Shown here: positions 17,079 to 54,093 of the stretch, in pieces
How positions within the stretch are numbered: position 1 is the first letter of the stretch
Layout: every line of letters begins with the position of its first letter
Source of the DNA: Phlegmacium glaucopus
Lineage: Eukaryota; Basidiomycota; Agaricomycetes; Agaricales; Cortinariaceae
Assembly (NCBI GenBank): GCA_015039465.1
Contig: MU130714.1
Location: forward strand, 62,001 to 126,000
Reading direction: 5' to 3'
Length of the DNA stretch: 64,000 bases
Program-made: the position numbers and the translations under genes
Notes under the pieces: model-generated
The model's database searches: none
Seen by the model: the letters and a program-made list of their open reading frames with translations, nothing else
Told to the model about the DNA's origin: nothing

Positions 17079-17200
17079 CTCCCCCTCGAGTTAAACAAGT
17101 GCACATGGACACAACACGGTGATCAGGTGATATGAAACGTGCTGTTTTGTTTATCATCAGATTGATTAAACAATAAGAGCCGGGTGTTGTTGACTGGGTT

Positions 17201-17999
17201 TCAAATGCCCATTGTTCCCATCTTCTTCAATCCAAGCGATTTGACGAACATTTGGAATTTCTGCTTCGATAATGCCTTCGTGAAGATATCCGCTACATTT
17301 TTGTTTGATGGTATGTATTTGACCTTGATTCTTTCATCCTCGACGGCCTTGCAGATAAAGTGATATTGTAAGTTGATATGCTTAGATCTTGCGTGAAACT
17401 TGTTGTCTTTCGCTAACGCAATCGCTCCCTGGTTGTCACAGTTAATCTTCAACGCTCGATCTTTTGGATGACCAATTTCTTCAAGAAAGGCATGAAGCCA
17501 AAGTGCTTCTTTGGCTGTGTGAGTTTGCGCAATGTATTTGGCTTTGGTGCTTGATAATGCAATAATATTTTGTTTCTTTGAGCTCCAGGATACAGCCCCA
17601 CATCTGATATGGAAAGAATAACCAGAGATCGAGTGCCTATCCTTTTGACTGGCCCAATCAGGATCACTATACCCTTCTGCTATACCATTTACTCCACCCA
17701 TGGTAAGCCATAGATCTTTAGTGTGTCCGAGATAACTGATGACCTGTTTTAGAGCTTCCCAGAATTTTTCCAGGGTTTTGAATGAATTGCGACAGGGTAC
17801 CAACTACGAAGGCTGCATCCGGTCTTGAAACAACAACTGGCCACAATACACAACCTATTGCTTCAGCATAAGGTATGCCTCGCACTTGTAATACCTGATT
17901 AGGTGTTGAAGGTGACTGATCCTGTGTATATTGAGCTCCAGGTTCCATAGGGGTTGAAACCGGCTTGGTGTTGGTAAGTTGGAATTTTTCTACCATTGC
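17201..17999 (-). pseudogene. Copia pol C-terminus (RT end and RNase H)
   Basis: The minus strand reads VEKFQLTNTKPVSTPM and GIPYAEAIGCVLW (connection domain). After a frame change near 17800 it gives an RNase H with DPDWASQKDRHSISGYSF, STKAKYIAQ and HINLQYHFI, ending GLKKMGTMGI at 17201. The upstream half of the RT is displaced to 33772 onward by the KDZ insertion. Confidence 0.85.
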
Positions 18000-18007
18000 C
18001 TTGATAT

Positions 18008-18290
18008 CAGGTAGGGACACTACAGTGTCCCGAATGATACGATTCCCGGAACAGACACACTGTGTTGAAAGATACGGGTTCACGGGGCCCCGTGAATCCG
18101 TGAATACAGCAGGGCTTATTAAGACATACACACTGTGTCGAATGATACGGATTCACAGAATGCGGGCGGCACCATCAGGTGCCGGGTATTTATCGGCAGG
18201 GCCAGTGGCAACCGGCAGATGCCTCGACCAGCACTGCTTGAAGGATATAGTAGTGAACCTAGTGGCACTGTTCGTTCGTATGACCAGTAA
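18008..18290. repeat. Left TIR of the KDZ element
   Basis: It is inverted relative to 33470-33764. It contains repeated ATGATACGATTC-like words and the perfect palindrome CACGGGGCCCCGTG (18081-18094), also present in the right TIR. Confidence 0.85.
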
Positions 18291-18359
18291 TGCTAGTATG
18301 CCTTGGCATTGATGGCAAGAAGTGTCAGGCAGTGCTCCCATGAACCAACAGTGGCGGTG

Positions 18360-19140
18360 GTCACGGCTGGCATTGCTAGTGAGGTGTCCAGGCCTGCCGG
18401 GTGAGACCTAACATGGCGGTTGATATTGAGGATGCCGGATCATACCAAGCATGCCGGTTGATAGACTTCAATGACGCCGGGTGATACCAAGCATGCCGGG
18501 TTGATGAGCAGAATGCCGGTTGATAGAAATCATGCCGGTTAATATCGACCATGCCGGTGGGGGTTGCCCAAGAATGCCGGGTGATAACAAGAATGCCGGT
18601 GAATAGCAAGAATGCGAGTGGGTAGCAAGAATGCCGGTGAATATCGACCTTGCCGATGCCTACCAAGGATGCCAGGTGATGACAAGAATGCCGGTTGGTA
18701 GCAATCATGCCGGTTAATATCGATGCCGGTGACAATTGCCCAAGAATGCCGGAGGATCACAAGAATGCCGGTTGATAGTAAGAATGCCGGTGAAGAGCAA
18801 GCTTGCCGGTGAATATCGAGCCTGCCGGTGCCCAACATGGATGCCGGATGATCCCAAGCATGCCGGTGAATATCACGCAAGAATGCCGGAGGATCACAAG
18901 AATACTGGTTGATAGCAAGATTGGCGGTGACTATCGAGCCTGCTGGTGCCTACCAAGAATGCCGGGTGATACCAAGAATGCCGGGTGATACCAAGAATGC
19001 CGGGTGATCTGGAGAATGCCGGTTGATATTGAGCATGCTGGGTGGTACCAAGCACGCCGGTGAATATTGAGTATGCCGGTTGTTATTGAGCATGCCGGTT
19101 AGTACACATCCAACAATGCCAGTAGGCATTCATGTTATCA
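18360..19140. repeat. Left subterminal TGCCGG minisatellite
   Basis: Irregular tandem units of about 20 bp share ATGCCGGTTGATA followed by variable GCAAG, CCAAG or TTGAG. The right end holds the same units as CCGGCAT, so the arrays are inverted relative to each other. Open frames through it are repeat artefacts. Its location suits transposase-binding subterminal repeats, but binding is inferred. Confidence 0.85.
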
Positions 19141-19187
19141 TTCATGTAGAGTAATGTAACAAAAGGTGTATATGAAAGTCAAGAGGA

Positions 19188-20069
19188 TCATTCATCCTCA
19201 TCGGATGAGACCTCATCAAACATGTGATCTTGAAGGTAGGAAAAATGTTCGGGACCAAATCTACGAGCTGGCGAGGAGACCGGCATATCACTGGGAGCGA
19301 GATTGTCCGATGATGGAAAATGGTTGTCAGTGTCAATGAAGATAGTCTCTGAATGGTCAAGAGTTATTCGGGATGGTGAAACGGCCAATTGAGATCCATA
19401 GGTGTATTGGCTGGAAGCAGCTTCATCATCCATCGTGCTTGAAGTATCGCTCTCAGCGCTGCCGGAAGACCACCTGTCTGCGAGACTGAGTGCCGGGTCC
19501 AGAGCTGCCATCTCCGAGTTTGAAGCCTCTGTTTCGGAACCCTCGTCAGTCCAGACGTCGGCAAGCAGCAAGGCCTGTACCGGTCGTGCCAACTCGCTAT
19601 CACTCCTCGTGGCCGGCGGGCCAACTGCCGGTCCTGCAGTTGACATGTCCGGGTCTGAATCCTCAATTCCGGACACCTCGTCAGTCCAGATGTCGGCGAG
19701 CTGCAAGGCTTGTGCTGGTAGGGCCGGCTCACTATCACTGCTCGTGGCCGCCGGGCTAACTGCCGGTCCCAGAGGTGACATCGCCGGGTCTGAAGCCTCA
19801 GTTTTGGAAACCTCGTCAGTCCAGACATCGGCAAGCTGCAAGGCTTGTGCTGGTGCTGGTGCCAACTCGCCATCACTCCAAAGCTCCGCAAGACTTTGTG
19901 CCATTGCCGGTGCCGGTGTCTCGCTACCATCACTGTCAGAGCCGGAAGTCCACACATTGGCCACCCTTTGCGCACGTGGTTGCAGGACCAGCGGGCTCAT
20001 CGTGGAGATTGGCGAGTCATCAGACATATTATCTTGCCAACGAGGATGCTGCCCCACCCAGAGGGTCAT
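19188..20069 (-). CDS. KDZ-element accessory protein C with LAD(V/I)WTDE repeats
   Basis: Function not recognised. The product is an acidic, Ser/Pro/Ala-rich protein of up to 293 residues (likely start MSDDSP at about 20029, or MTLWVG at 20069). It contains five imperfect repeats of about 48 residues, each with a core such as LADVWTDEVS, LADIWTDEVS or LADVWTDEGS, degenerating to LADRWSSGS. The C-terminus is FSYLQDHMFDEVSSDEDE. The repeat core may be a short linear interaction motif (inference). It lies just downstream of gene B on the same strand and could be its last exon, since only a short gap with a plausible acceptor separates them. It is not broken. Confidence 0.55.
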   Translation of the reverse strand: MTLWVGQHPRWQDNMSDDSPISTMSPLVLQPRAQRVANVWTSGSDSDGSETPAPAMAQSLAELWSDGELAPAPAQALQLADVWTDEVSKTEASDPAMSPLGPAVSPAATSSDSEPALPAQALQLADIWTDEVSGIEDSDPDMSTAGPAVGPPATRSDSELARPVQALLLADVWTDEGSETEASNSEMAALDPALSLADRWSSGSAESDTSSTMDDEAASSQYTYGSQLAVSPSRITLDHSETIFIDTDNHFPSSDNLAPSDMPVSSPARRFGPEHFSYLQDHMFDEVSSDEDE

Positions 20070-20108
20070 AAGAAAGCCGGTCCTGTCTTGACAAATAAGG
20101 TGGGAGTG

Positions 20109-21310
20109 CTAAATGAGTTGTGGTGCGAATGATGCTTCTGCCGGAAGAGCTTCATGTCGTCCATAGGCGGTTTGGACTGTCGGTGGATCAACCGTGTAGT
20201 CTCCGAACATCTTCCCCTCCACCAATGAAACATCGTATCCGGAGTGGGCCCCACGGCCAGGTCGTGTGCCAGTTCTCCGTAAAGCCAGGACTTCTCCCTC
20301 CATCAGCTTCTCACCCCAAGTCCATTTGTAAGAAGATGCCGGAAGAGCCCTGAGTCGGTTCAGTTCAGACAATGCATTGGCTGCGACTATGGCAATGTGG
20401 TCGGCAGTTGGGGCTGGTGCCGGTGTTGAAGAACTGGCGGTCTCCTTCAAGAGTGCAGCTTCATGTAGCAGATGAAAGGTAGAGGCCCGGCGTATCCACA
20501 ACTTCCACTGTGTCTCTGAGCTCGTAGACATGCCTGACGATAGATTGTACACCTTGAGGATATCCTGGAGGACCTCACTCAGGAGATCACGGTATTTGTT
20601 GCATTGTGGGCATAGTCTGCCGTCACCCGGTCCGGCCGGATGAGAGTGAGTACTAGCAGAGAGTGTGGGACCGGCACCAGGACATGCAGGACTAGATCCG
20701 GCATGGAGATTAGGAGTGTTGCCAGGAGTAGGAGTAGGACCGGCATTGGCATGGATCTCGGCACCAGCACCGGCATGTGTTGCATGAGATTGTTGTATTT
20801 GATAGTGCTCGATGCATGTTTCAAGGGTGGAGGCGTCGAGGATCTTGACGGTGTCAAGGTCCCTCGGCTTTCGCCCAGACCACCAGCAATGTTCATACGC
20901 GCTCACAACTGGGCTTTTGTGGCCTTTCTCATGCGCGCCGATATCCAAGGTAGCGAGAAAATGGGGGTCGAAAGGGAGCGGAAGCGCATTTTCATTCAAC
21001 AGTGCCATGCTGTCGGCGAGGGATCGCAAGATGATGGGGATATCGATGGTCTGCCCCACTGACACGGCAATGCCGACATATGACAATATAAAAAGCTTCA
21101 CAATCATTAGAACACTGTTAGAAAAGCAGCCATGGTGCGTACAAGTTCACGATGAAGTAGCTTTTGTGTCCACCTTTGATGATCAATTGGGGTCCTGCTG
21201 ATCTCATTCAAAATGTACCAAAATCTCAATTCTGCGTAGTAGATGACCTCTTGAATGACCTTTTGTGAGCCAGACTGTGGCAACAATGGATTAAATGGAC
21301 GAATTGACAT
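20109..21310 (-). CDS. KDZ-element accessory protein B with a CPQC motif
   Basis: Function not recognised. The likely start at 21310 (MSIRPFNPLLPQ) gives an N-terminal exon, then a short intron ending near 21056 and a long exon. That exon contains DIPIILRSLADSMALLNE, AYEHCWWSGRKPRDLD, an Ala/Gly/Pro-rich linker encoded by TGCCGG-like words, then LCPQCNKYRDLLSEVLQDI and WIRRASTFHLLHEAALL, ending FAPQLI. A helical, Cys-containing segment suggests a nucleic-acid or partner-binding role, but this is not established. It lies 60 bp downstream of the transposase stop on the same strand. It may splice onward into gene C. Confidence 0.55.
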
Positions 21311-21369
21311 TGTAGATGGTACAGATAACAGCAAAGAGAATGGTTCATAATCCACAAATGGCAATAAGT

Positions 21370-24300
21370 TTATAAAGGAGATTGGTAAGCAAGATTGAAT
21401 CTGGCAAAGGTACGGTCTGCTCTTATCATAAGGTCTTCCCACACTGCCTGTTTCTGTTGGCCGTATGCAACTGCGCCGGCACTTTGTGGTTGAGTGCCGG
21501 ACACGGCCCCGGTATTGATGCCAGTGTCAGTGCCGGGGTCGGAGACCACCCAGCTGCAACTCTGATACTGGAAATACCGGACAGTCCATTGCATTTCATA
21601 GCTCGTAAGGGTGACTTGTTCTTGCCACCTCATAACTTGGGCACGAGCACGTAGCCAATGCACTCGACGAACTATGAAGTCTCAGTGTGGTGAAAGATAC
21701 CAGCAAGTGCACTTACATTCAAAAATATTGGCGTCTGAAGTAACTCCGGCCCCGGCCCCGGCACCAGCACCAGCACCGGGGGTCCTGCCACTAGCCAACC
21801 CCCAACGGTGACCACCAGCTGTTTGCCAGATCCAGGAAAGCGTCAGCCGCGTGGACCCCGGTTCGTTAGGATTCACGATGGCAGTGCTAGCTTTCACATC
21901 GTCAGCAGTCAGGATGTTAAATCGAGATACAGTGACCGCATCGGCACCCAGTTTGATCAAGCGAGCCCGGCATTGTGTGTACAGCCGGCAGTGTACGGAG
22001 ATTTTTAGGTTCAACTTTTTCACCGCAGCTCTTGAGTGTGTGTTAACGCCTTTTCGTGGTGAAACACGAATCACATGTGAAAATTGGAAGCTCTTCTCGG
22101 CAATGAGGTCCCGGATTCGATTCAAGTGGTGATCCGCATGTGAAATGCAATGGGACAGTTCTAATTCACGGTATACTGGTCCTACATTACCGTTCGATGG
22201 CAGTGGTATGGCCTGGTCTTCGACTGGTGTGGGGCCGATCGATGCTGCAGGAATATTGATGGGTGCCGGGGGGGTGGCCGGTGCCAGCAATGCGTCAGGG
22301 CCAGTGGGCACCGGCTCATTGGCAATCTGATCCCAAGCTGCAAGAGTCTCATTTGGGACGATTTCTGGCGCATTAATTTCTGGAACGCCTGCAAGATTCC
22401 TGGCATTTTTCAGCTCAAATATGAGGATCGTCAATCCCCACTTCGGTATACACTCTGAGATTCCGACACCACATTAAAAGACCGCTGTTGTCTCCTCTAT
22501 TTCCTGTTACGACTTGTCCTTGTCAACGTGGCCAGCTCCGTCTGTGGCCACGGCCTGCACCCGGACCGTAGATTGAAACTGCTGCTGCCACCTTATTATC
22601 TAGAACTGCTTCTGACACTGTTGCCACGTCCTCTGCTACTACTGCTACTTTAACTTCTTCTCCTCCTTTACCTGTTACTTTGTTAGGGTTTAGGTATGGA
22701 ACGTGGGCCCCGGCCCGTGTGACGGCCCGGTGTACGACCGTACGGCCCATCAATGGAGGCTCAGCAGGTGAGTTTACCGGAAGTGGTGTAACGTTACTAG
22801 TCGACACTTACGGCTCCAGTGCTACAAGATGGTAACCTAGAAAAGCGACGAGTTAACGACGGTCGATCGAAATTTGCCTAGTTTTGAAACAAGTGTCGCG
22901 TCCATGACCTGTACATAGCAAACACGTTGAACCTCGAGTTCCGAAGCCGTATAGTTAAAATAGTTGACAATGCGGCCGACTGCGCTGGTTACCGTGGCCG
23001 TCTCCATTAGTTGAATATGTCTCTTAAAGCGTCTTACTCGGCCCATACCGCAACCTACTTCTTTAACTTCACCCGGTCTATACGGCCGTGGTTGTTTTTC
23101 CAGTTACTTCAATTTCGGCCACTCGACCGTTAAATGACGGGCCGTACAGGGGTTGGACCATAGTTATAGGGTCTCCTAACCTTCCTACTAGGACGAGCCG
23201 TACAAGTACACCAGGTTCAATGTATAACACTTTGACTGTTCAACCTCGTCTACCCAGATGTTTGTATAAAAGCACCGGCTACCATTAAAGTTTCGACTAG
23301 TGCAAGCCGTCGTCTTAGGCCGTCCACTGCAGACCGAGAGCCTTCCTTGACCGTACTACGGTCCTTCTGTCCTTATGTACAGTAAGGAACGTAGCCGTTA
23401 ACTCTCTGACTGTCACTCACACACTATGACGACCACGGTCACGGTCACGGTCACGGCCACGGTCAGAGTCAAAGGATAGTACGGGTAAGTTCTAACTGGT
23501 AAGTAATGGAATGAAACGTCTTCCGTGGTACACTTTTGTGTAAGTCTCGGTAGTACTTACGGGATGTCCGTAGCTTCGATACACTACAGTGGCCAGACCA
23601 GTCATAACGGACGCCGGCCGTACCGACGATACGGGGAGTTCGGGAGCAGCTGGAGAAATTTCCTCTTGTCGTCTTTTTACACCTGAAACGGAACGAGTCA
23701 CGAGAATGTAGTTGGGTACAACTTGGACTTGTCCCACACGAGGACTAAATACTGTAACGTACGGTTATAAAACAGGTAAATGTCCTGGCGTAGCCGAGGG
23801 CCGAGGGAAAGCCGGAACTAGAACTGCGACGGTAGCCAGATAAGGTACAGGTGCGGGTATTTCTAGTTACAAAGAAAGTTATACGTTGTAGTAAATAAGG
23901 ACCCCGTCGGTAGCACCGACCACTCTAAAACCTTAGAGATACCAGTAGGGAGTTACGGTAAAGGGGGTGCCGTGCCTGTCGTTGTGATCTTGTAGCCCGT
24001 CTTTACAACCTACTAGTGCGATGACTAAGTTTAGTATTCTTTTGAGAGCCGTAGTAGAGGTCGGACACGGCCAGAGTAGCCTGTCGACATCTATACGACC
24101 TAGTACGGGTTTGTATAATGGTCTTAGAGTGGCTGGTCCGGCCGTAGTGTCGCCATCTGTTTACCTGCGTTCTATAACTCGCCCGGCTTCGGTACGCGTT
24201 TATACTGTAATGGCGGTACCTACATATACGGCGGTTTCACCTAGTATGGTGTGGTCTACAGGCCGTTGGCCGTGGCCCGTACGGGTCCAGCCGTGACCGG

Positions 24301-25276
24301 TGTACCTACCTTGACAGTGACCGTCACCTCCTCTTTGTCACTCACTGTAAGGTCTATAAATAAATTGCTATAACACTGTACAGTTCCGAACTCTATGTCC
24401 GTTGTCACGCAGTTGACCCAGCTTTAGGGTCACCATCGCTGGCCGTCTGGTAGCTCTGTCTCGCACTTGNNNNNNNNNNNNNNNNNNNNNNNNNNNNNNN
24501 NNNNNNNNNNNNNNNNNNNNNNNNNNNNNNNNNNNNNNNNNNNNNNNNNNNNNNNNNNNNNNNNNNNNNGACCGGTGCAACTGTTCCTGTTCAGCATTGT
24601 CCTTTATCTCCTCTGTTGTCGCCAGAAAATTACACCACAGCCTTAGAGTCTCACATATGGCTTCACCCTCATGATGCCGGACCAACAGGTATGTACCAAC
24701 CTCCCATAGTTCAGCAGTACGAAAGTAACTGCCGTTCCATTGCTCGATACGATGAAACGGATTGTCTCTGTGAGATAGTCTCATACATGCCCGGCACATA
24801 GGGGTAGCCAGCAGGCAATCCTTACATCTCCACACGGCAAAGAGAGCCTTGTCACAATGCCGGCATATGCCGGTGACACCTGGGAGTGCCTCCCGGCTGA
24901 GAAGAGCTTCTAACAAGTTATCTATACGGTCGACGTATTGCTGTATGTAATCTTTTTGTGTCTGACCATAAAGAGATTAGTACCCATGGGATGCTTCTTT
25001 CAGTTGAATGCCTACTCGATGTGGATGCGTTCTCTCTGGTGGAGGGGACACATTCGCCGGCTCGCAGTCCATCCGAGGCATGTCTGCTGGTTTCTCAACG
25101 GTGGTTATCTTCTCACTCGGTGAATCTATTGGTATCCAGACTCGTTTCGAAACTGTACGGCCGTCATTCCTTGTTTCTAAAATTGTTTTGTGTGTGACTG
25201 CCTCCGCCAAGTCGGTATCTCCATCGACCATAGGTTGCTTCCCCCGCTTGCGTTTGTTGATTGTTCGTGAATTCAT
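21370..25276 (-). CDS. KDZ transposase with CxC2 domain; middle part written in mirror orientation
   Basis: Start at 25276 (MNSRTINKRKRG), with a Lys/Arg-rich N-terminus. After a short intron comes the CxC2 cluster: CRHCDKALFAVWRCKDC, CRAC and FHRIEQWNGSYF. The sequence enters the N gap at 24569. The missing middle is found by taking the plain complement of 22536-24469 left to right. It gives the CxC2 end (VVHSNGLHHI), GNFKADHVRQQNP, the KDZ core CDVTGLVSIACGRHGCY and VDLFKGEQQKNVDF, the catalytic-type YDIACQY, GLFHVHAH, SFIPGAAIVAGEILESLW and LEHRAEMLDDH. The C-terminus returns in normal minus orientation from 22436: NTHSRAAVKKLNLKISVH and, after an intron, HWLRARAQVMRWQEQV, ending at 21370. 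No nonsense change was seen in the parts I read. As deposited the gene is unreadable because of the assembly error. Confidence 0.85.
22437..24469. other. Mirror-image block: sequence reversed without complementing (assembly error)
   Basis: Read left to right, the complement of this block is transposase coding sequence with proper introns (for example an acceptor TACTTTGCAG before KAPCENTFRA). Neither strand of the block as written encodes anything. Its first 99 bases (22437-22535) equal 24668 down to 24570 read backwards, base for base, right up to the N run. A chromosomal inversion would give the reverse complement, never the plain reverse, so this is a data-processing error. The true position of its low-coordinate end is against 24570. 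Confidence 0.95.
24470..24569. other. Assembly gap (100 N)
   Basis: One hundred N abut the mirror block. Because the mirror block overlaps the right flank by 99 bases, the true missing sequence is probably only a few bases at the other join (between complement-24469 and 22436). There the transposase frame does not quite connect. Confidence 0.95.
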
Positions 25277-25425
25277 GGTCGTGGTCAGGAAGGAAATATA
25301 AGATATAAATATGTGTATCTGTGTTAGAAAACAAGCAACACATGGCAGCCTCATGTTTGCAATGAGGCACAAAGCAGTATCATGGTTCTCTTCTCAAACT
25401 CTCACATCTTGGTTCTGAAATTCTC

Positions 25426-27737
25426 ATGGATGCCAATTTACCTCGCAATCCATCTGGTCATCCATCTGGCCGACTGACTCGGATTTATAATACCCAAGAA
25501 CGTGCTGCGATCAATACATTCAAGACTCAATACCTGGAGGCAACTTCGCCGGTAGCAAGAAAGACAATCGCCCAGGTCCATATATTCCCAGCACTTTTCA
25601 ACCATTGGATCAGCATTGGGCAAGTCATAGATGATAGAGAAATGAAATTACGGACAGTGGTATGTTAAAGGGTCCAATGAAGATTGCGTTGGAATATTAA
25701 CGGTGGTATTAATGTAGGAACTGATTAGTTGGCTTCGGAATGTATGGCGCCCTACAAAAAAGTTTGCCTTGACAAAAGGGAATCGATACCGGCTTACCGA
25801 TGTCCTTTGGTGGACTAGGGAGGCCGATGTATTCAAGGAGATTGCGTCGATGATGGACCTCGAGTCAGCCGATACCAACACTCCGGGTTGGTTCCCGCTT
25901 CGCACGAGAGCTGCAAAGAACCTTCTTGAAGAAATGCCAGAGGTGGAGAAGAAGAAGCTCAGAGACGAGGCCGATAGATGGGTCATTGAGGGTGTGCCGC
26001 CCGATCTTCAGAGGAAGTGAGTGTGCCAGAGCCGGTGCCGGTGCCAAAAGTCACTAAGATGTCCTAGATTTGCAGAAGAAAAATGGCTTTCGCGCTTCAG
26101 CAAGACAGCAAAAGAGGTCTACAATGAGATGGGATTACTCTCGGTCTCTGTAGTTGTGTACACACGGAAGAATGGTCAGACGGCGATTGATATGTACGTG
26201 CTGGCTTGTCCTCTGCCGGGCACACTCACTGACAATTGTCAGCCATGATGACATTGCCAATCTTCTTGGTGTGCCAGCAAAGTCATTTGAAGATACACAG
26301 AGTGAAAAGGCCTTAGATATGAAGCGAACAGTCTTGGAATACATCAAAACACTCCGGGCTGCTGGTGCCGGTGCCGGTGCCGGTACTAGTCCTGTATCCG
26401 GCACTGACCCCCTGGCAATTCAACTAGATGCTGACGGTTTTCCCATTGCTCCATCGCCGGCATCATGGGATAAGGTTACAAAAAGTGATCTGGAGCGACT
26501 GTATCGCGGGTATATCACAACACATTATCGTATGTACCTGTCTCCTCTGCCGGGGTCTAGGTGTTGATCACCTGCAGGGCTTGCATCTAGAGACGCGAAG
26601 CGTCAGGCCCCATTTAGCCGGGTGTCAGTAAAGCAATCGGACTTTATTGCAGCGAAATATCTACCGCGTGGTATCACCCTGAACGACCCCCGAGCAATGA
26701 AACGTGAAGCAATGATACAATTCTTTGAACATATTGGAGCACGGCAGGCATCACACGGCGTACAAGATGCATTTAGATTCAAGTCTGTGCTATCCAGTCG
26801 TAAAAAGGGTTCCCTGCGTGAGGCGAGGTACTTCGATGCAGCTGCCGGAGACCCGGCGCCGGCGCTCCCATTGACGACAACGACAGCCGGCCAGAGAGCC
26901 ATAGCGGATACCCGGGTTAACAGTCAACCAATTTTACAAGATGCCCCTTATGCCTTGAATGCGATTCAGCCAGTTATGTTCTCGCAGGATGTCCCGTATT
27001 CCTTCAATACTTTCGAGCCAGTCATGTTCTCGCAGGCCCCAGATGTTCAACACCCGGGCCCAACATCTATGCCGACTCTGACACTGGACCCGGCATACAA
27101 CATTGATCCATTTGTGAATCTGGATCCATCTTTGGAGCCGGCTCAAGATATCTACCTCTCACTTACAAGTCTATTCACAAATCCTGTGTCGGCATCTACT
27201 TCCACCATAGTGCCGGCCATGGGACCGGCACACAATGCAGATGTCTTACCGGCATCGAGAGCAGCATTATTGGAACCAGCTGTAATGGTCTCATGCGTCG
27301 ATCCGGCGGTATTGAATCCGGCATCCTGTGACCGGGCATTACTGAATCCGGCATCCTGTGACCAGGCATTATTGAATCCGGCATGCTGTGACCGAGCATC
27401 ATTCACTCCGGCATCCGGTGACCAGGCATCATTGAATCTGGCATGCTGTGACTGAGCATCATTCACTCCGGCATCCGGTGACCAGGCATCATTGAATCCG
27501 GCATCCGGTGACCAGGCATTCTGCCTTCCAGCATCCGGTGACCAGGCAACATACAATCCGGCGTCTTCTTTGGCACTGGCACTGACCGCCCAGCACGAGT
27601 TGGCAACGATATCAACACTGGCACAAGCGGCAGTATCACCCCGGCATCCAGTGAAAAATGCTGAAAGATTAGCAATTGAGGAGGCGAAGAAATATGGGGC
27701 AACAGGCAAGCGTCGGCGTGGAGCTGTGCGGCGCTAG
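25426..27737 (+). CDS. KDZ-element accessory protein A with a C-terminal NPASCDQA repeat; one nonsense copy
   Basis: Function not recognised. It is divergently transcribed from the transposase with a 149-bp gap between the ATGs, so the promoter is shared. Exons: MDANLPRNPSG-TRIYNTQERAAINTFK (25426-25664); ELISWLRNVWRPTKKFAL to GVPPDLQRK (to 26019); KWLSRFSKTAKEVYNEMG to NGQTAID; DDIANLLGVPAKSFEDTQ to YRGYITTHY; and from about 26569 RQAPFSRVSVKQSDFIAA with HIGARQASHGVQDAFRFK. The last three introns contain GCCGG words. The tail is a 30-bp tandem repeat (27300-27560, NPASCDRALL-like). One unit carries TGA (27453-27455) where its neighbour has CGA; the frame stays open beyond it to 27737. The gene may therefore end early in this copy. 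Confidence 0.6.
27300..27560 (+). repeat. 30-bp coding tandem repeat in gene A
   Basis: Units such as GAATCCGGCATCCTGTGACC encode NPASCD-like peptides. A 60-bp double unit (27391-27450) is duplicated nearly exactly at 27451-27510, with one CGA-to-TGA difference. Confidence 0.85.
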
Positions 27738-27960
27738 TAGAGTGAGCCAGGCCATGCCGGTCACTGGTTCCCACTCCCATCAGGTGATACCAGGCACTCA
27801 CTGTCCAATTCAGAATATAAACATTTATTTTGCAATTAAAAAGACAAGGGTGTATAAGTCAATGAGGCAAGAAACAACAAGGCGACCAAAAGAACACGTA
27901 AACTGGGATGCGTAGTAGGATGAAGATATGGATAGGAACCAAAAATGACCGGCAACCCCC

Positions 27961-30580
27961 TCACTGCTGCCTGTGCTTCTTGGGAGCTGGCTCTTCAAGG
28001 GTGTCATCGGCAAGTCGTTTGGTGGAGGCTGGGCCGGGTGATGAGGCCAGACGTGGAGACCGGCGCAGGTCAGTTGCTTCGGCAGCTGGTGATTTGGACC
28101 GGGCACGAGACCGACTGCCAGACGGAGTCTGTGGAGGCAAAGGCGTAACAGCGGGACCCGGCACTTGCAGAAGGGTGGTCCGGGTATAATTTATGGCTTC
28201 CTGCGATGTGTTTGGAGTTGGAGGGAGTAGGTGGACACTTGGCATGTCCACTATGGGTTCCGATGTGGATGGCAAGGCAGGTGGGGGCATGTCAGCGGGA
28301 TCAGCTGCCATCGGAGGGGCAGTAGGCACATCATCAGGGATCGGCACTGTGTGAGGCGCAGTCGCCGATTGGACAGCTTCGGCGGCCGGCATTGGCATAG
28401 ACACAGGGGGGTTCACATCCGGCATTGGCTGAGACGCCGGCAATGGGAGATCTACCGGCATCTCGTTCCCTACCGCCAGGAGGTCGACAGTTGGTGCCGG
28501 ACATGGAGCGGGTACGGTGTGAGGCGCAGCCGCCGGTTGGACAGCCTCGCCATCTGGCATTGGCACAGTGCGAGGGGCTGGGTTCACGTGCGGCATTGGC
28601 TAAGACGCCAGCAGTGGGAGAGCCACCGGCATTTCATTCCCTACCGGCAGTGGGTCGACAATGGACACCGGACATGGAGCCGGCATCTGCTGTACAGACG
28701 GATGGAAGTCCGGCATCTGGTGTGGAGCCGGCAGTGCTGCTGGTGGAGGAGGTCCCGGCATTGTTCTTCCTTGGTCAGGAACAGGGAGTGTAGGTGCCGG
28801 TCTTGATGATCCCGGGGTCGGCGACCCCAGCACTAGTATTGGGGCAGGAGTGGCCGGTACCATTGCATGGTCTTGCTGAGGTGGTTTCTCGCTGAGGGTC
28901 TTCAGCAGCTCCTCAGCGCGGGCAAGCCGTTCCCTCATCTCTTCCATCTCCGTATTCTGAGCCTCTACTCGCTGACCCAAAAACCGGACCTCCCCTTCAG
29001 CCGCCACATTCTTCATCAGCCATGTCTCCACCAGGATGAACGCATTGTCCATCCTCTCCTCCAGCGTGTTCACGTCTTGCAGACACGCGACCAGTTCGTT
29101 GCGGAAGTCAGTGACCATGGACGTCAAATGTTCAATATCTAGAAATGTCATGGATAAATATATTGGAAAATGAAACATGAAACTTACCACCGTCCCGGTC
29201 CAAATCTGCAAAGGTCTGTGTCTGTGGGCGCCGGTTGGCAGCACCGGCATCAGAAGCCTCTGCGTCACTGGAAATGATCATGGCAGGACTCTTGACCACC
29301 TTCTTCTTAGCGCTGGCAGCCGGGGCACGTCGAGATTTGGGTGCCGGTACTCCTTTCTTCGCCGGTGCCGGTTTCTGTTCGGGTGGTGGCTTGTTGGACG
29401 TAGCCGGCTTTGCCGGGGCCGGTTTCTTACTGGATGACTGTTTCTTGCTGGGTGCTGGTTGAATGACCCATGCTGTTCCTTGCTCACAATCTTCCTCCTC
29501 CTCACTGGCCGGATCACATCTCATCTTGATTGTGGCGCAGAAAACACACGCCGTTGCGAAACCCGCCTGTTCCAAACAAGTCCTCTTCGATTTGACGCAA
29601 TGCCGGCATGCCGGTGTTCGGAGCCAGCCATTGGTCTTTGGGGCCGGACACTTCTTCTCTCCCTGGCTTGCTGGGGGCCAGACTTTAATCGTTGGTTGTT
29701 GCGGTTGCTCCTCATCCCCCTCCTCCGTGTCCTCCATTTCATCAACTGGCACAACCATTTTTTGTTTCCCCTTCTCCTGACGGGGAGGTTCAGGGTGTCC
29801 CCCATGTGCTACAGGCCGGACGTTAGCCCTTGGCTCCTCCTGAGTCTCCTCATCCTTGTCATCCTTGTCATCCTTGTCATCCTTGTCATCCTTGTCATCC
29901 TCGTCGTCTGTTTCCTCCACCGGTGCCACCATCTTTCCCTTGCCTTTGTCTTGTCGTGCCGGTTGAGGGATTGAAGGACCGGCAGACGGCATATGCCGGG
30001 TATTTGGGGCTACTGCCGGTACCACCTGTGCCGGTGATGAACCTGCAACCGGCACTTTCAGCTTTCCTGATGCCGGCTCTCGTGCTACTGCCGTAGATGT
30101 CAACTGAGCCGGGGAAGGAGCCTTGCGTCCTGAGGGTCCACTCGCTACCATCACTTGCAGACGTCGCACCGGGGCTTTGGGTACTGCAGCCGGTGCCATG
30201 CCGGCTTGACGATGCTGGTCTGGGTGCTCCTGGTCAAAATCCTGCAAGACAGCGACTTGCCGGGTCCAAAACTGGTCGTCGAGCTGTCCCTGTGTCTTTG
30301 CCCTGAGCCAGCCTTCGGTAAATGGCCAGATAAACCGCGGCGCCTTGAATTCCTGTTGAATTTCAGGGCTGTCGCGTGTGTCGTGAGCCGCTTGCATCAA
30401 GGTATTCTATAGGCTCGATGAACATGTCTGTATGTGTTTTGATGATGGCGGAGGACTTACCATGGTGGGGCGTTCCTTCTGGAACACTTTTCGAATCGTG
30501 CCGTCGAGGACGGCAGCCCGGAAAATGACATCGAGGTCGTCGACGAGGTCTCGGATAATGGTTGGAGTGTAGGCAGACAT
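27961..30580 (-). CDS. KDZ-element accessory protein D with a Cys cluster and coiled coil; one nonsense codon
   Basis: Three exons: from 30580 MSAYTPTIIRDLVDDLD; after a GTAAGT intron (about 30471-30414) AAHDTRDSPEIQQEFKAP with FIWPFTEGWLRAKTQ; then a long acidic/basic low-complexity stretch (a KDD repeat from a CATCCTTGT minisatellite at 29840-29890). A cysteine cluster CRHCVKSKRTC...CVFCATIKMRC near 29500-29600 resembles a Zn2Cys6-like binuclear cluster. The third exon (from about 29138) has a coiled coil MEEMRERLARAEELLKTL. It then has a Pro-rich tail of two long repeats, ending in a basic, NLS-like APKKHRQQ. TAG at 28600-28602 replaces CAG of the sister repeat, truncating this copy. A role as an element-encoded DNA-binding partner is inference. 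Confidence 0.6.
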
Positions 30581-30814
30581 TGATAGATTGTTGGTAGTGG
30601 GTTGCTGGAAAGAAACTACATAGACAATCAGTAAATACCCGGCATTGGTGCCATCGGCACTCACCTTAGCGTGTGGTGGGGACTGGTGAGGGGAAAAAAG
30701 GCAGGATCAACAACATACACGTGGGAACATTCAACAATCAACATACACGTGACCTTCTTCGCTTGCTCGAGCCACGGCACATATACTGGCTGTTATCTCA
30801 AACATTCACCACCA

Positions 30815-31731
30815 ATGGCATCCAGCACACATCCCAACCCCTTTACCTCCGACAACGTACAAAACAGTGAGAACCCATGGATCCCGGAAGGATGTGTTAC
30901 CGTTGTTGGCCCCAATGATCAGAGATACTTGGTACCGGCATTCATGTTACCGGCAATGCATCAACTGTTCGACGGACATCGAAAGAAGGAAGAGTTGAAG
31001 GCTTTCGGTGCTTCAGGAACGGTAAGTACTTACTTGTCCTAGTTTATCGGGCATCAGTCTGGCTGCTCGCAACCGGCTCAGCTAGTACCGGCTCAGCTAG
31101 TACCGGCATAGCTAGTACCGGCATAGCTAGTACCGGCATAGCTCGTACCGGCATACATTGTACCGGCATACATTGTACCGGCTTCCTCCCTACTCTCATC
31201 CTTGCTATCATGCTGTGCTAGCTCGCAGACTAGTCGGCGGTATACCTCCAGGGGTGACTGCCGGCATACTTTGTCTCGGCATACTTTGGACCGGCATGCT
31301 CTGGGCTGATATCGCCCACTGCATATGCTAACCATGATTTTGAAGGTCCATCAATTTGCCAGCCAGCTCTTTGACATTATTGGAGAGGGCAAAATCATGA
31401 TGCCAACCGTTCCCGTGAGTGAAAGTGGAATTTTATGCCGGTTTCGCTGAGCCCCCATTTCTAGGGATCTAGTGATCGTGAACGTTTAGCAGCACATAGC
31501 GAGGTCCTGGCACTTCAAGAAAGGCTCGGCATATCATACAAAGATGCTGCACATCGGTTGTACATGGCGGAACTGGAGGGGATCAAGGCAGAGCAAAAGA
31601 TGTACAAGGCCTTTACGAGTTTGCAATCATCAACGGAGACGACCCTTCAAATGGCTTATCAGTCTATAAAAGTCATTGAATCCACTGGCCCATGTGCCGA
31701 GGCCGGCAGTAATGTTGCAGGCATGCAGTAA
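30815..31731 (+). CDS. KDZ-element accessory protein E, small helical protein
   Basis: Function not recognised. It has three exons: 30815-31021 (MASSTHPNPFTSDN, WIPEGCVTVVGPNDQRYL, MLPAMHQLFDGHRKKEEL), about 31346-31409 (FASQLFDIIGEGKIMMP) and about 31465-31731 (SSDRERLAAHSEVLALQE, GISYKDAAHRLYMAELE, stop TAA). The first intron (about 325 bp) contains a 15-bp TACCGGCATAGCTAG minisatellite. The VTVVGPNDQRYLVPAFML segment recalls short basidiomycete transposon-associated proteins. It is divergent from gene D (about 235 bp between starts) and shows no broken codon. Confidence 0.6.
31078..31180. repeat. 15-bp minisatellite in the intron of gene E
   Basis: About seven tandem 15-bp units of the form CTCAGCTAGTACCGG, CATAGCTAGTACCGG and CATACATTGTACCGG. 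They lie wholly inside the first intron of gene E, and each carries the ACCGGC variant of the element-wide word. Confidence 0.85.
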
Positions 31732-37779: not shown

Positions 37780-38990
37780 CTATGAGAAAAACAGATGAGC
37801 TGAGATTCCCAACGTTTTAGGAGTGACGCGATGCATCAAGCGAATCTCAAATCCCACTAAGCTATAGGCGCGAAAGGACTTACTATGCTGCTGAACAGGT
37901 GGCATGGTTAACCGAACAAATCCTTCGTGGTTTGTCAGCGTTGCCTGCATGTATGGCACTAACACTTGGGCATGCTTCTGTAGATATATCAGGAAAGCAT
38001 CGCTTGCCCATCTACCCTTCGCCTTCATGACATCAAATGGGACTCCTCTCAGGAGATACTCGAGCGTGGACCCTATTCGTATGCCGTGACCCTGCAGCGG
38101 GTCTAAGCCTGCTCTCTTCGCAGCCTGCTGAACGACTTCGAGGAACTTTGCCTTCGTCAAAGGCTTATGACGTCCGTTGTCTAAGCGATAAGCAAAGAGC
38201 GGCCCCTGCCGAGGCGGACTGTTGATTACTAAATGATTGTCCAAAGCAGCCTGGGGATCGGTGTCCCCATTTTGGGCTGACCAGGACACGTCCTCTCCAT
38301 TGGGCTGCGTCTTGGTGCAAGGGAGATGAAACACGACCAAGACCAGCAAGTGCCGGTCCGTCTCTGTCCTCATGTCTGAAGGTTTTACGTGCAGCTCTGG
38401 GTCAAAGGCCTTGAGGGTCTTGACTGTGAATTCTCCCAGACGCACAGCTGCGAAGAAGGTCATTGTCAGGCAAGCAAAGGCTGCCGCGTGCAACGGAAAG
38501 TCCAAGTTGAGCTGAGCCCTTAGATCGGACATGTATTTTAACGTGAACGGCTTTCTCTTTGTTTTCTTGGAGGCGAGTGGTGCTGCTTTGTCTGCTGCTT
38601 TCAGCAACGCTTCAATCTCCCCGTCGTTCATCTCCCATCTAAGCCCATGAAGGATGTGCCAAGCCCTGATCCCAAATACGTAGTTGTAAATCGTAGATCC
38701 TGCATACATGCCTGCTATTGTGGCAATGAATGAAGCAATAAGAACAGGGCTGCTTGGGCCCGTTGGTCCTCTGCGATCATTTTCTGGTCGCAGAACACAT
38801 GAAAGACCAGGAGACCTGATCCGTAAGACTCCCTCGTCCCTTCCTCCCAAGCGCCTGCTATGACCCCAGTTATCTCTGCTAAGTCCTCTACTGTGAGGTT
38901 GGTGGGAAGCCCATTGCCGTCCAACGTGTTGCGAGCTGTCGTCGGAACCCATAGCCTGAGACGATCTCTTGCGAAAACATGAGGTCAAAG
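37780..38990 (-). pseudogene. Ngaro tyrosine recombinase, one frameshift
   Basis: It mediates integration of the circular cDNA in this class. The catalytic set is visible on the minus strand: Arg in FFAAVRLGEFT (near 38440), His-x-x-Arg as GHGIRIGSTLEYLL (near 38070), Trp in KGRWASDAF and the Tyr nucleophile in IYLQKHAQVLVPY. The N-terminal SAM-like part (LTVEDLAEITGVIAGAWE, GLLVFHVFCDQKMIAEDQ) is in another frame, so a frameshift near 38745 separates it from VLIASFIATIAGMYAGS. Apart from that single break the core is intact. Confidence 0.8.
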
Positions 38991-39066
38991 AACAGATGGC
39001 AGTGGCTTTAAACCCTCCGCGTATGGGGCTGGCTTTGGAGGTCTTACTGGACCTATAACCCACGTA

Positions 39067-41378
39067 TCAACGCGAGGCACACGCATAGTCTGAGAACTCT
39101 CGATCTTGTGCTGCTTGGCTGCTCTCAAAAGACTGTCGCTGGGAGATAACTCTGACTGGTTTCTGGACTGGATTAGGTGCTTTTCCTTCGTAAGCAAGAC
39201 GCTGCTCAGCTGGGCTGAGAGGTGCATTGTAGACTGCGATGAAGGGTGTGAGCCCTTTGGGGATAACAATCTCGGGAAGGACATAGCTAGCGGGCCCGTA
39301 TTCACCTCGTGAGACGCTGTCTGCTGGGTTCCTCTTGCTAGCAACGTAGCGAGTGTGGAATGTAAGGTTAGCTTCTCTCAAAATTGAGTGAATTTCTCTG
39401 AAGACGAGGTTGGTCGCAATGTTCCTACTTCGCCCTTTCCACCAACCCTCGACAATGCCTTTGTTGTCCCCATACACTTTGAAATGGACATTTGCCTCTG
39501 AGCTAATGTCGCAGATAGTGAGGACGAGAAAGAGGAACCCAACCACTTCTGCCCAGCCGATATCTCTCCCGTCTGCCTTCCGCCCAGGTAAGAGCCTCCA
39601 AGCTTGCCATTGGTCTCCGATTGTGATGCCAATGCCAACTTCTGAGCTAGCATCTGAGTAAGCTGCGAGGTCTTTGATGGGAGTGGGACCCGGTATGGGA
39701 CGCGAGAGGTGATGAGTTTCGAAGAGGGCCCTCCACCAGAGAAGATCGCCTTGCGATTGTCGAGGGGGGGTACGTGGCATGAAAGGACTGTCGTTACACA
39801 GTCCCATGAAGGTCTCCAAGCTGGCCAGATATGCTCTTCCTTCAGGAATAACGAGCGTAGCATGGAGTAACTTTCCGTAAAGTTTTTGCGTCTCATCCAG
39901 CAAGTGTCTGGGAGAATCGCTCGATAGCCAGTCCTGTACGGCTTGGTGATATTTGAGCCTCTTGAGGTCTGAAATACTAACTGTTCGAGACTCCAAGTTC
40001 CAAAGAAAGCCGATGAATGGCACTTCGACTTGGAACTGGATGTCTTTTTCCTTCTCCCAGGGAATACCGAGTTCATTAGATATAGCATCGATATCGTCCA
40101 TGCAATACGTGTAAGGAAGATCCAAACTAGATCTAAAAATGAAGTATTAAGCGCTGATGGCTTGCTACGACTCTTCGATGCTACTTACCGATGCGAGCGA
40201 TTTGAGAGATCTTGCAAGACCACCGAGACATCCTCGTCGAATTCTTCCGGTTTGTCATTCGGCATGGTTTTTCCTTTGAACCACAATCTACCTCGATCCT
40301 GATGCTGACCCCCATTACCATCAATTTCCTCAGCCCACTGCCTACGCTGGAGGTTATAGGCCTGAAGGGACGCTCTGAGAATACGAAAGAATACATGGTC
40401 GTCGACCCATTTGGAGAGTGGGCCGACACCTTCAGCGCACATGACTTGTGCTCCCGCATCTGCGATCCTACCATAGGTGCCCAAGCCTGAAGCAAGTCCG
40501 AAACAATCACATGTGTCGATTCCAAATATGTCGTTACCTTGAAGTCGAATCGCAATGCCTGGCCATTGTGATGGAAGGAGAGGGACTGTGCGGTAAGCTT
40601 CTTTAACGTCTCTGACTGCTGCTTGAGATCCGGGAGGCAGAGGAAAAATGAGAAGAGAAACGACGTTAAATGTACCCCACGTGGATGGGAAACGATCAGA
40701 ATCGATGGCACTATTAATCGAGGTGATGCCTGACTGTGTGGGGTTATGGGGGTGTGACAAATTCTGTAGTAAACAGAATTTCCCTGGTTTCCCTGGTTTT
40801 GGGAGGAGACTAAGTGGGGATGTCTGAAACGGGCCGAGCAATTGCTCTGCTTCAAATTGTGAAACTGGGCCCAGATATCTGCCCCTCTTGAATTCAATAT
40901 CGATAATTTCATCAAACTTATCACTGAGCTCTGCGATGGAAGGTTTATTGAGTGGAACATAAGTCCTTGTGATCCTCGGTATCCCTGCATCGAAGCCATG
41001 CTTGATTCCATACAGAATGTTATGATATTTATCAGCAATCCCTGATTTTTCCAACAACCTTTCCCAAGCCTCATGCTTGTACGGAGACCCTGAATTAAGC
41101 TTTTTGTGCTCGAGAGCACTTCTGAGCTCCGTGAGATGCTTTTCCGCATCCTGAGCACTCGTGTTTGGAATCGTGCGTAGTGATGGAACATCCGTTTGGC
41201 GTCTGCCAGTCGGAGCAGAGGATGGTTCCGGCTGGGTTGACGAGTCGACCCTTGTCCTCCTTTCTGCAGTGTGCTGGAGAGCCATCCCACAGGGTTTGGA
41301 CCGCACAGGCCCAGACGTTGTGTCAATGACGACCGAGGCAGATGGTGCAGGCGGACAAGGTCGCCGAAGAGCCTGCAC
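39067..41378 (-). CDS. Ngaro reverse transcriptase-RNase H
   Basis: The first exon (41378-40188) has FKRGRYLGPVSQFEAEQL, LLPKPGKPGKFCLLQNLS, AVRDVKEAYRTVPLLPSQ and the RT active-site region KWVDDHVFFRI. A 57-bp intron (GTAAGT...TTTTTAG, about 40187-40131) leads to DLPYTYCMDDIDAISNE, VPFIGFLWNLESRTVSIS and the RNase H part (AAYSDASSEVGIGITIGD, KVYGDNKGIVEGWW, RYVASKRNPADSVSRGEY), ending at 39067. No nonsense codon was seen. The stop lies next to the recombinase frame, and the relation between the two (fusion, frameshift or separate gene) is not clear. Confidence 0.8.
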
Positions 41379-42147
41379 CTGAGTGAAAAGACTGAGTGGA
41401 CTTCGAAAAGCGCCTTCTCTTCAAGTCCTGGGCTACTACCCTGACCGGCGATTTTTGCCTAGGTTCATGAGCCCTCCTAACGGGTCTGTAACTCGCACTC
41501 GGATCTGACGTCGGCGAGACAGACCTACCCCTTTTGTACCTTCCTCGGTGGTTTGGACTAGCCATAGACGCTCTGGAGAGCTGCTCCTCTAGCCTAGTGT
41601 GACGTGAAAAAAGATGATCGAGTGCGATAATTAAGTACAAAGAATAAGTAATAAAATTTTGGGACGAAGCAGAGCCGAAAATTGAAAACCAAGAGATCCG
41701 AAATTACTTTTTTTTTTTTTTTTCTTTTTTTTTATCACGAAAGATAGAGCAGACAGGCCAAAAGGGAGAGAGAAATACAATAAAGTAGAACAGGGTGGTT
41801 ACAACGTAAATATAAGACATGATGCAAATTTTTTGATGAAGCCAGAGGCGGTAGAAGCGGGCGAATATAAATATCTGAGGCCGTGATGCAACAGAGGCAG
41901 TCCCAAAGAGGGGTATAAGTTATGATGCAATGAAGCGGAAGATGATGCAGCGAGTTGTCAAGGACGAGACGAAGGGAGAGACAGCGAGAGAAATTTATTA
42001 GTACTTATGAAACAAATTCTTAATGACTAAAGAAACTCACCGTAGAACTCCCTCAGTCTGCCTCGCGATAAGCAGACGACTGTGTATCGCATCTATTCTT
42101 ATATCGTTAATGACGCTGATATCAAACGCCTCTTCTTCAGAGCCGCC
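41323..42147 (-). pseudogene. Ngaro gag, 3' part beyond the transposon insertion
   Basis: After the inserted transposon the minus strand continues SEEEAFDISVINDIRIDA and HSRLLIARQTEGVLR. An intron of about 440 bp with an A/T run follows (about 42036-41600). Then come the basic MASPNHRGRYKRGRSVSP and ACTICLGRHPHD, a CxxC-type nucleic-acid-binding end. It overlaps the start of the RT frame. Confidence 0.65.
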
Positions 42148-42850: not shown

Positions 42851-45800
42851 ATGCCCAACACTCGTACCCAAAGTTCAAGCAACCGCAGCGGCTTCATCCG
42901 CGACAAACCACCCTCGAGACCCAATACCAGAAAACGTGGCGACAGTGGCCCAACCGTTCCCAACAAGAAACCCAAGATGGACGACGATGGGAACGAGTCA
43001 GAGGAAGAGCCGGCAGCAGGTAAAACACGCACTAAGGGCAAAGGACGGCGTCAAAAGACCAGGTAAGTGCTGCTCACTGTCTGTTCAAAACATACTAACA
43101 TGGCTTTGTATTCGAATAGGAAAACCTCAGCCCAAAAGGCTGCCGAAGATGCAGCAGCATCAACAGCGCGAACAACGCTTCCCAGGTGAGTAAAACCCAC
43201 AAAAAATATATTAGTGGCTAACAACGTATACTACAGGACCGAACGTATGCTTGAGAGCAGCGGCATTGCCGTTGCCCCTCCTCGTCGCTCTGTTTCCACT
43301 GGGGGTGCGCACGGACCACCCCTTTCTACCCACGAACACCTTTCTGCCCACGGACCACCCCCTTCCACCCAGCCAACAACTCGTCGTCGAGCAAGCAACC
43401 GAGAGGTTGCTTGTGACAGTGACGATGACTCTACCAACAACAACAACCACGACAATAGTGGTAACGAAAACGACAACAATAGTATAAACAACCGCAGTAA
43501 TGACGGTGAACACAGCAGTAACGACAGCAACGACTACGGTAACGACTACAGTAACGACTACGACAACGACAGCAAACATAACAAGCGCAGCAAGCGCAGC
43601 AACAATAACACAAACAGCTACGACGAGGACGGCAGCAACAGCAAACGCAGCAGTAACGAGAACCCACGCAACAACGACCACGACATACCCAACGACCACG
43701 TCATACACAACAACAACAACGACATACACAACAACAACCACGACGTACGCAACAGCACCAACAGCACACCCAACAACGACGCACGCAACAGCAACAACAC
43801 ACGCAACAACGACAACGACGCACGCAATAACGACGAGGCACACAACAGCAACGACACACGCAACAACGACAACGACACACGCAACAACGACAATGACGCA
43901 CGCAATAACGACAACAACGCACGCAATAACGACAACAACGCACGCAATAACGACGACAACGCACGCAACAACGACGACGCACGCAACAGCAACAACGCAT
44001 GCAACAGCAACAACGACGCACGCAATACCAACAACAACAACAACAACGCACGCAATATCGACAACGCACGCAACAACAACAACGGTGAATGCAGTGGTGA
44101 CACTGCTAGTAGCCTCTCTTACAAAGGTATGTGGGGCTGAGGCCCTGGTAGTATTATCCACCTACTTTAAGTGTATATTTTCATGTAATATTAGAAGTTT
44201 TAATGGATGACCCAATTACACCACCTCGTCCCTATGGATCCTCTCGTACCACAGGAGGACTTTTTCGTGGAAATGCCTATGGAAATGCCCCAAGTCATGC
44301 TGACTTTGAGGATGTCAACATAGATTACCTTGGCCCTGTTAAGCCAGCAGTCCTTCAGGCCAAGGTTTACCTCTATGTTTCTCCACTTAATCCAGCTGAT
44401 GTTGACTTGGCTATAACTAAGCCTATGTCAACTGTAACAGTCAAAGCTGAGAAGAGCTTGGGGCCTGTTCTTGAGGAAATATCCACAAAGTGGTCTCCTA
44501 TTAAACGTAAGTTAAACCCTCTAATTATTATTATTATTATTATTAAAATATTCATAGGAGACCGGGTGTTTGTTAGAGTCCAAGATGTATGGGATGTGAA
44601 AGGCCGTTATGAACAAGCAGTAAAACAAAATGAAAGTCTTGACTGGATGATTGAGAATGGTCAAAAGATAAGCCGACTGTTAATCGTAAGCCAATTCCCT
44701 TCTATATTAATTTCACTGTTGAATATTAGCATAGAGTTCTTTTGGAAACTCTCTTCAATCCTATGTTCCAGAATCTCCTGCTCCTTCCAATTCTGTTCCT
44801 GGATCTCTTCTTGCTCCTTCCATTCCTGGCTTTGCTTCAGTTCCTACTTCAGTTCCCGCTTCACGTTCTGAAACTCCTGACCCCTCTGGCGGCTCTTTCC
44901 TCACTACCCACCAACTTGAGATGGCTAATATCTTGAAAATTGACCTTGATCTTGCCAAAAAATCAGACAATTCCTTGCGAATGAGCTGGAAACGATACAA
45001 GGCTATAAACATTGCTCTTATGAAACGTACAAAAGTCAAGTGGCCTGGGAAGACCCCACAGTCCACTGAGATTGCTGAGATCTTGATTAGCAAATCATCT
45101 TGGTATAAGCCTGTCCAACCTAACTTCAAAAAGGTTGGTCGTTATCCTCAGATGGTAGACTGGTTGGAAAGGGATACAGATGATGAAGATCCTAGTGATT
45201 TAGAGGTCTGGGGAGTGGATAAGGGTCGTTATCTTCACTCAGATCTTACTCTCTGGCTGAGTAATAGTGGGACATTAGTTCCAAACGAAGTCACTCCTTC
45301 TCCTCCTCATAAGTCTGTGACCAGATCATTGCAAAAGGGGAAGCAGAGGATGATAGATGTTGATGTGGGCAATAAGGATAGAGGTGAAGGTGGAAGTGGT
45401 TCTAATAAGAAATCACACAAAAAAGGCAGTTCCATTCAGAAGTAAGTTTTAGTAGATATTCCTGCCTCATTTTGAAAGTCAATGTAATATAGTCTCCTGT
45501 TTTATGCCACCTTCCTGCTGTCCTTCAGTCAACTGTCAATATTTTCCTGGATTTTTATTCTAGCTGCCTTTATTCCCATGGTCTCTGGATCACCAACTAG
45601 TCAACAATTCCCTGATATTACCTTCCAAACATTTAATACCTTCATTACTGCCAACTTTGACCCCCATGTCTCATTATCAACTGTTCTTCTGGTTTTATTT
45701 ACCCTGACTGAAAATTCTGATCTACTCAACCTCCATTCTCGGCAACAGCATGCTTTGCATGATTCAGAACGAGCCACCAAAGTTACAGGATGGATTAAAG

Positions 45801-52567: not shown

Positions 52568-53450
52568 NNNNNNNNNNNNNNNNNNNNNNNNNNNNNNNNN
52601 NNNNNNNNNNNNNNNNNNNNNNNNNNNNNNNNNNNNNNNNNNNNNNNNNNNNNNNNNNNNNNNNNNNNNNNNNNNNNNNNNNNNNNNNNNNNNNNNNNNN
52701 NNNNNNNNNNNNNNNNNNNNNNNNNNNNNNNNNNNNNNNNNNNNNNNNNNNNNNNNNNNNNNNNNNNNNNNNNNNNNNNNNNNNNNNNNNNNNNNNNNNN
52801 NNNNNNNNNNNNNNNNNNNNNNNNNNNNNNNNNNNNNNNNNNNNNNNNNNNNNNNNNNNNNNNNNNNNNNNNNNNNNNNNNNNNNNNNNNNNNNNNNNNN
52901 NNNNNNNNNNNNNNNNNNNNNNNNNNNNNNNNNNNNNNNNNNNNNNNNNNNNNNNNNNNNNNNNNNNNNNNNNNNNNNNNNNNNNNNNNNNNNNNNNNNN
53001 NNNNNNNNNNNNNNNNNNNNNNNNNNNNNNNNNNNNNNNNNNNNNNNNNNNNNNNNNNNNNNNNNNNNNNNNNNNNNNNNNNNNNNNNNNNNNNNNNNNN
53101 NNNNNNNNNNNNNNNNNNNNNNNNNNNNNNNNNNNNNNNNNNNNNNNNNNNNNNNNNNNNNNNNNNNNNNNNNNNNNNNNNNNNNNNNNNNNNNNNNNNN
53201 NNNNNNNNNNNNNNNNNNNNNNNNNNNNNNNNNNNNNNNNNNNNNNNNNNNNNNNNNNNNNNNNNNNNNNNNNNNNNNNNNNNNNNNNNNNNNNNNNNNN
53301 NNNNNNNNNNNNNNNNNNNNNNNNNNNNNNNNNNNNNNNNNNNNNNNNNNNNNNNNNNNNNNNNNNNNNNNNNNNNNNNNNNNNNNNNNNNNNNNNNNNN
53401 NNNNNNNNNNNNNNNNNNNNNNNNNNNNNNNNNNNNNNNNNNNNNNNNNN
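52568..53450. other. Assembly gap (883 N)
   Basis: The sequence is unknown. It lies inside element 2 between transposase exons. Frames drawn across it are meaningless. Confidence 0.95.
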
Positions 53451-53968: not shown

Positions 53969-54093
53969 ACAAAAGGGCAATTCCAGTTGGTAGAGCATAG
54001 CCATGTTCATCACCGTGCGGAGTCCAAGCTGTCCGCACAAAATTTACACCCTAAACCTTAAAATTTAAAACTTTTGTAATATATATATATACC

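Follow-up and report, generated by a model that had tools for sequence, protein, structure and literature searches.

Architecture of the locus

The window, a stretch of 64,000 nucleotides (C247:62001-126000 in a Phlegmacium glaucopus genome assembly of 60.5 Mb on 259 contigs), contains a minus-strand KDZ transposase locus, the middle of which is written in reversed string order without complementing and is followed by a run of 100 Ns. The parts of the locus, in window coordinates, are as follows:

20042-22436, minus strand: left flank, normally oriented and homologous to the left-hand portion of other KDZ loci (blastn)
22437-24469, no strand assigned: block in reversed string order, uncomplemented, with a KDZ transposase on the minus strand as its true content (blastn, Pfam, k-mer)
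22437-22535, no strand assigned: 99 bases mirroring 24668-24570 (99 of 99 exact), where the fill would enter the right contig
24470-24569, no strand assigned: run of 100 Ns, with apparently no sequence missing if the block is read in its true order (both junctions)
24570-24668, plus strand: normal copy of the 99-base overlap, the first bases past the N run (mirror match)
24572-24976, minus strand: right-flank open frame in normal orientation, probably an exon of the block's gene (ORF; the flank aligns with KDZ loci)

A mirror search of the whole window with seeds of 16 recovered the identity between 22437-22535 and 24668-24570 read backwards, beside the N run, at all 99 bases claimed by the first-pass annotation; the second-longest mirror in the window spans 24 bases of a simple AAT repeat. 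The proposed placement of the block against the right flank at 24570 with a 99-base overlap likewise stands, and to it can be added that the left flank is also flush: at 22436 the reversed block joins the left flank with no base missing relative to L009 and L012, the two loci compared at this junction. The left flank itself is ordinary KDZ sequence, with 19001-22436 matching eight loci elsewhere in the genome by blastn (L009, L010, L012, L013, L014, L015, L017 and L018). The open frame at 24572-24976, taken alone, has no Pfam match at E<=0.01. The inserted sequence thus looks as if it fits both flanks and bridges the whole gap and, given the flush left junction and the right-hand overlap, the 100 Ns would stand for nothing. 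An earlier view of the block as an extension of the right contig, drawn from the 99-base overlap, is superseded by the gap-free left junction, with which the block fits both sides.

Coding content and homology of the reversed string

When the plain complement of the block is read from left to right, the following coding features emerge, with domain coordinates derived from the frame offset:

22438-23283, no strand assigned: stop-free frame of 282 codons with a CxC2 domain at about 22747-22986 (PF18803, E 7.2e-19)
23404-24339, no strand assigned: stop-free frame of 312 codons with a KDZ domain at about 23521-24033 (PF18758, E 8.4e-41)
23414-23520, no strand assigned: GT-AG intron of 107 nt (GTGAGT...TTGCAG), whose spliced product is as in P0122

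The profile comparison envisaged in the first-pass annotation thus yields both families (E 8e-41 and 7e-19): the KDZ match scores 140.5 bits against a cut-off of 26.6 and covers profile positions 50-217 of 217, and the adjacent CxC2 match scores 68.4 bits against a cut-off of 27. All five peptides that had been named from the plain complement, including CGRHGCY, YDIACQY, GEILESLW and LEHRAEMLDDH, are present there from left to right, and they occur in none of the six frames of the block as written. The four longest as-written frames, those that were searched, lack any Pfam match at E<=10, in keeping with the claim that neither written strand encodes a similar protein; the longest stop-free frame of the block is 312 aa in the reversed string versus 102 aa as written. 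GT-AG introns had also been reported in the complement, and the one checked (23414-23520) is borne out: its removal joins ERLT to KAPCEN, and the same join occurs in the P. glaucopus protein P0122 (BYT27DRAFT_7016783), which matches the reversed string at 97.5-98.5% identity in three segments. Moreover, the main exon of the reversed block is identical at 262 of 262 residues to the predicted protein P0121, encoded on a separate contig of 2,662 bases (source tag jgi) that is presumably of metagenomic origin. A second P. glaucopus protein corresponds to locus L012, with 100% identity over 199 residues and 79% and 97.5% in later segments.

The DNA comparisons run in the same direction. The reversed block was compared by blastn with a panel of 20 fetched loci, ten of them picked for matching the right flank. 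It gave 11 matches in nine loci, all normally oriented KDZ loci, at 80% and 79% identity over nearly the full length in the best two and 71-78% in the seven others. The block as written matched one of the 20, on C190, which is itself another backward block, and genome-wide it matches only itself and four places, all of which proved to be reversed. Hence, profile, homology and k-mer results bear out the view that 22437-24469 is reversed but uncomplemented and conceals a KDZ core, and they support taking the reversed, uncomplemented string as the meaningful sequence. With PF18758 and PF18803 side by side, the reversed block has the same constitution as the KDZ (Kyakuja-Dileera-Zisupton) DNA transposons with CxC2, whose relatives are plentiful in the same genome and present in Phlegmacium glaucopus. 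In its true order, the element appears to be a KDZ transposon of a known kind, in which we see nothing unusual or biologically new.

Statistical test of reading order

We also compared the two reading orders using a k-mer model with both strands pooled, trained on 152 kb of C247 outside window positions 19001-31000; this contig has no KDZ match among the best candidates listed in our genome scan for the domain. At order 4, 125 control segments of 2,033 bases, left out of the training, favored the written order by a mean of 0.034 bits per base (sd 0.017, minimum 0.0006), and the window block had an LLR of -0.068 bits per base between flanks at 0.045 and 0.039. All six blocks tested in this way (that of the window, two on C190 and one each on C120, C171 and C200; 1.1-2.2 kb) were negative, as against none of the 125 controls, and the four intact KDZ copies and both flanks were positive. 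The outcome for the six blocks and the four intact copies was the same at orders 3, 4 and 5, with controls falling below zero in 3 of 125 cases at order 3 (lowest -0.0025) and in 1 of 125 at order 5 (lowest -0.0039). The profiles of further blocks on C128, C99 and C29 were negative across those blocks.

An earlier version of the test, with KDZ loci in its training set, was negative in 44 of 49 block-centered stretches, leaving five that were not; 47 of 1238 outside stretches of 600 bases, including window 43001-44000 and 53601-54400, were weakly negative and are not counted as blocks. In a 1000-base scan of the window and L009-L028, with a model trained partly on the sequence that it scored, values below -0.013 bits per base were confined to the window block and the two C190 blocks.

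Further backward blocks in the assembly

The suspicion that other gaps of the assembly might be affected proved well founded: nine further blocks, some in KDZ repeats and some in other repeats, lie on seven other contigs, for a total with the window of ten blocks on eight contigs. This total is a lower bound biased toward repeats, which are all that the search can detect. The nine, none with an assigned strand, are:

C190:64097-65237: directly after a run of 3,773 Ns
C190, about 67784-69089: N-free; matches window 27070-28256 backwards in four collinear segments
C120, about 95705-97910: preceded by an N run; edge flush within about 8-14 bases
C171, about 55030-57250: N-free
C200, from 116335: preceded by an N run
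C128:307177-308568: after an N run
C128:310308-312362: no N
C99, about 17095-19020: N-free over the 3.5 kb read; non-KDZ repeat; edge flush within about 8-14 bases
C29, at least 50623-51262: when read backwards, 99% identity to 640 bases of C228

Five of the ten adjoin an N run and four are free of Ns as far as they were read; for C29, the stretch read is 800 bases. In all eight blocks compared, reversing the string lengthens the longest stop-free frame, the narrowest case being 135 versus 130.

Reversal of contig-edge sequence in place can be followed to the base at three points: the left edge of the window block, the first C190 block and the first C128 block. After C190:64097-65237, the normal sequence resumes L017 at base 523, to the base (5238 of L011). 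The first C128 block contains a 97% backward copy of 1,091 bases situated 5 kb away, and base 308569, the next after the block, continues that copy forwards; the mirror differs by 20 substitutions and one 12-base deletion, with no single-base indels. The edge on C171 is unclean, with about 420 unmatched reversed bases separating the homology of the left contig from that of the block, and the second C190 block is identified by composition together with four short backward matches, whose E values range from 9e-16 to 2e-5. A common reversed stretch at 98-100% identity links L035, L034 and L045 (C171, C120 and C128, respectively), which suggests that one repeat sequence was used in filling several gaps.

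As a side observation, two KDZ copies of about 97% identity lie within 5 kb in C128:307177-313866 (L045 with L039 and L040), and one is written partly backwards. DNA queries also pointed to candidate backward places at C154:22549 and C225:270606, with the same signal as C29; queries run without a control gave a weaker signal at C189:98740 and C224:346214 and short matches at C148:213603 and C46:11380.

Origin of the blocks

We consider it almost certain that the blocks are an assembly artefact, in which a fault in gap filling wrote correct contig-edge sequence in reversed, uncomplemented form. What is observed is the reversal, its recurrence on seven other contigs and, in the window, a flush left edge and an overlap of 99 bases; from the positions of the blocks, we infer that the responsible step was gap filling, with a strand-handling routine that reverses without complementing. 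Such a step would correctly extend a contig edge into a scaffold gap and would then write the fill in reversed string order, omitting the complement. In the window, the fill would continue the left contig from 22436 without overlap, span the whole 1,934-base gap and enter the right contig by 99 bases; it would then have been pasted backwards after 22436, with 100 Ns left, presumably as the join went unrecognized. Where a fill did not cross its gap, the N run would stay (the first blocks of C190 and C128, C120 and C200), and where it did cross, no N would remain (C171, C99 and the second blocks of C128 and C190), the window being the case with a 100-N spacer and an untrimmed 99-base overlap.

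As to the tool, PacBio patching in the style of PBJelly is the leading candidate, a guess to which we give somewhat less than an even chance. JGI hybrid assemblies were produced with ALLPATHS-LG followed by PBJelly in a study that includes Cortinarius glaucopus, treated there among the ectomycorrhizal Agaricales; the available part of its text does not specify which genomes were hybrid (PMC7550596). PBJelly outcomes comprise gaps closed, shortened by extension of the flanks, or overfilled (PMC3504050), and its products are like the present blocks in that fills start from contig edges and gaps end up closed, shortened or, although filled, with a residual N run. In contrast, proper PBJelly fills keep their orientation, and string reversal is unmentioned in the available part of that description (PMC3504050).

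A variant of the same explanation, in which the step was something other than PBJelly, such as a scaffolder, a short-read gap closer or a custom finishing script, seems to us about as probable as its opposite. It has in its favor the 100-N spacer and a fill free of single-base indels, and against it the JGI practice for hybrid assemblies noted above (PMC7550596) and the resemblance of the closed, reduced and overfilled classes of PBJelly to the three kinds of place seen here (PMC3504050). Since the C128 mirror has no single-base indels, it points to fill sequence that was accurate or had been polished. The idea that the fill came from raw long reads was considered and is unsupported, the 1,091 bases of that mirror being unlike raw long reads in this respect.

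Corruption during later copying or re-formatting of the record, downstream of the original assembly pipeline, is improbable. All the observations come from one copy of the assembly, as such a fault would allow, but the blocks end where a gap-filling step would leave their edges: at N runs, at contig edges within repeats and at an overlap of 99 bases that was left untrimmed.

Natural inversion, or some other rearrangement of a KDZ element, is more improbable still. KDZ elements are repetitive and often broken, with at least 76 domain matches in the genome, many with stops. However, a natural inversion yields a reverse complement, and BLAST covers both strands, yet the as-written block matched only reversed places on either; the named motifs are on neither written strand, the four longest written frames lack Pfam matches, and strand-averaged k-mer statistics still score the block as reversed. 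The exclusion of natural inversion in the first-pass annotation therefore holds up. Ordinary inversion misassemblies are similar in placing a wrongly oriented segment between correct flanks, but they too are reverse complements and still code on the other strand, unlike the block. Finally, chance mirror symmetry or low-complexity sequence, which does produce mirrors of up to 24-25 bases in simple or palindrome-like sequence, has a negligible probability in the face of 99 exact complex bases and of 2 kb that, once reversed, is homologous to two loci at about 80% and to seven more at 71-78%.

Consequences for genome surveys

The warning that surveys of this locus would go wrong is borne out by a six-frame scan for the KDZ domain: among the 76 best matches listed, none lies on C247, C190, C171 or C128 or at the C120 block, and the reversed KDZ cores are therefore invisible to family searches. 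One 112-aa as-written frame of the C171 block, used as a query for database proteins derived from such sequence, returned four candidates, none at E<=1. Backward sequence keeps its length and GC content, has almost no match on either strand and resembles orphan DNA. As a data fault, the reversal is real, recurrent and easy to test for, with ten or more stretches of this assembly affected; it is not biology, but it hides genes.

In any genome, the fault can be screened for cheaply by a BLAST search of the assembly with every contig in plain reverse order, or by a strand-symmetric k-mer score of each stretch in both reading orders. We found no description of this kind of error among the open-access papers listed by our searches or in the available parts of PMC6191289, PMC8081667 and PMC8848313. 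Should a common tool prove to be at fault, many draft assemblies would need screening. It is conceivable, though we would not put it at an even chance, that the strand fault of a widely used gap filler has seeded many public draft genomes, preferentially destroying repeats and transposons at gaps, evading two-strand checks and maybe entering repeat libraries and orphan-gene sets.

Other features of the window

A second N run, at 52568-53450 (883 Ns), has no mirror match at its edges; to its right, 53601-54400 was mildly negative in the first k-mer test and not in the later 1000-base scan. On the minus strand at 37783-41458 lies a tyrosine-recombinase-like frame, with a Phage_integrase match (E 0.0016) below the cut-off; adjoining frames resemble reverse transcriptase by eye, and the region is possibly a DIRS-like element. 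Two genes of KDZ-associated type are also present: one on the plus strand at 45488-46738 with a CxC5 domain, and one on the minus strand at 49640-51864 with CxC5 and CxC6 domains, whose best named relative is in Phlegmacium glaucopus, at 95% and 100% identity in two segments.
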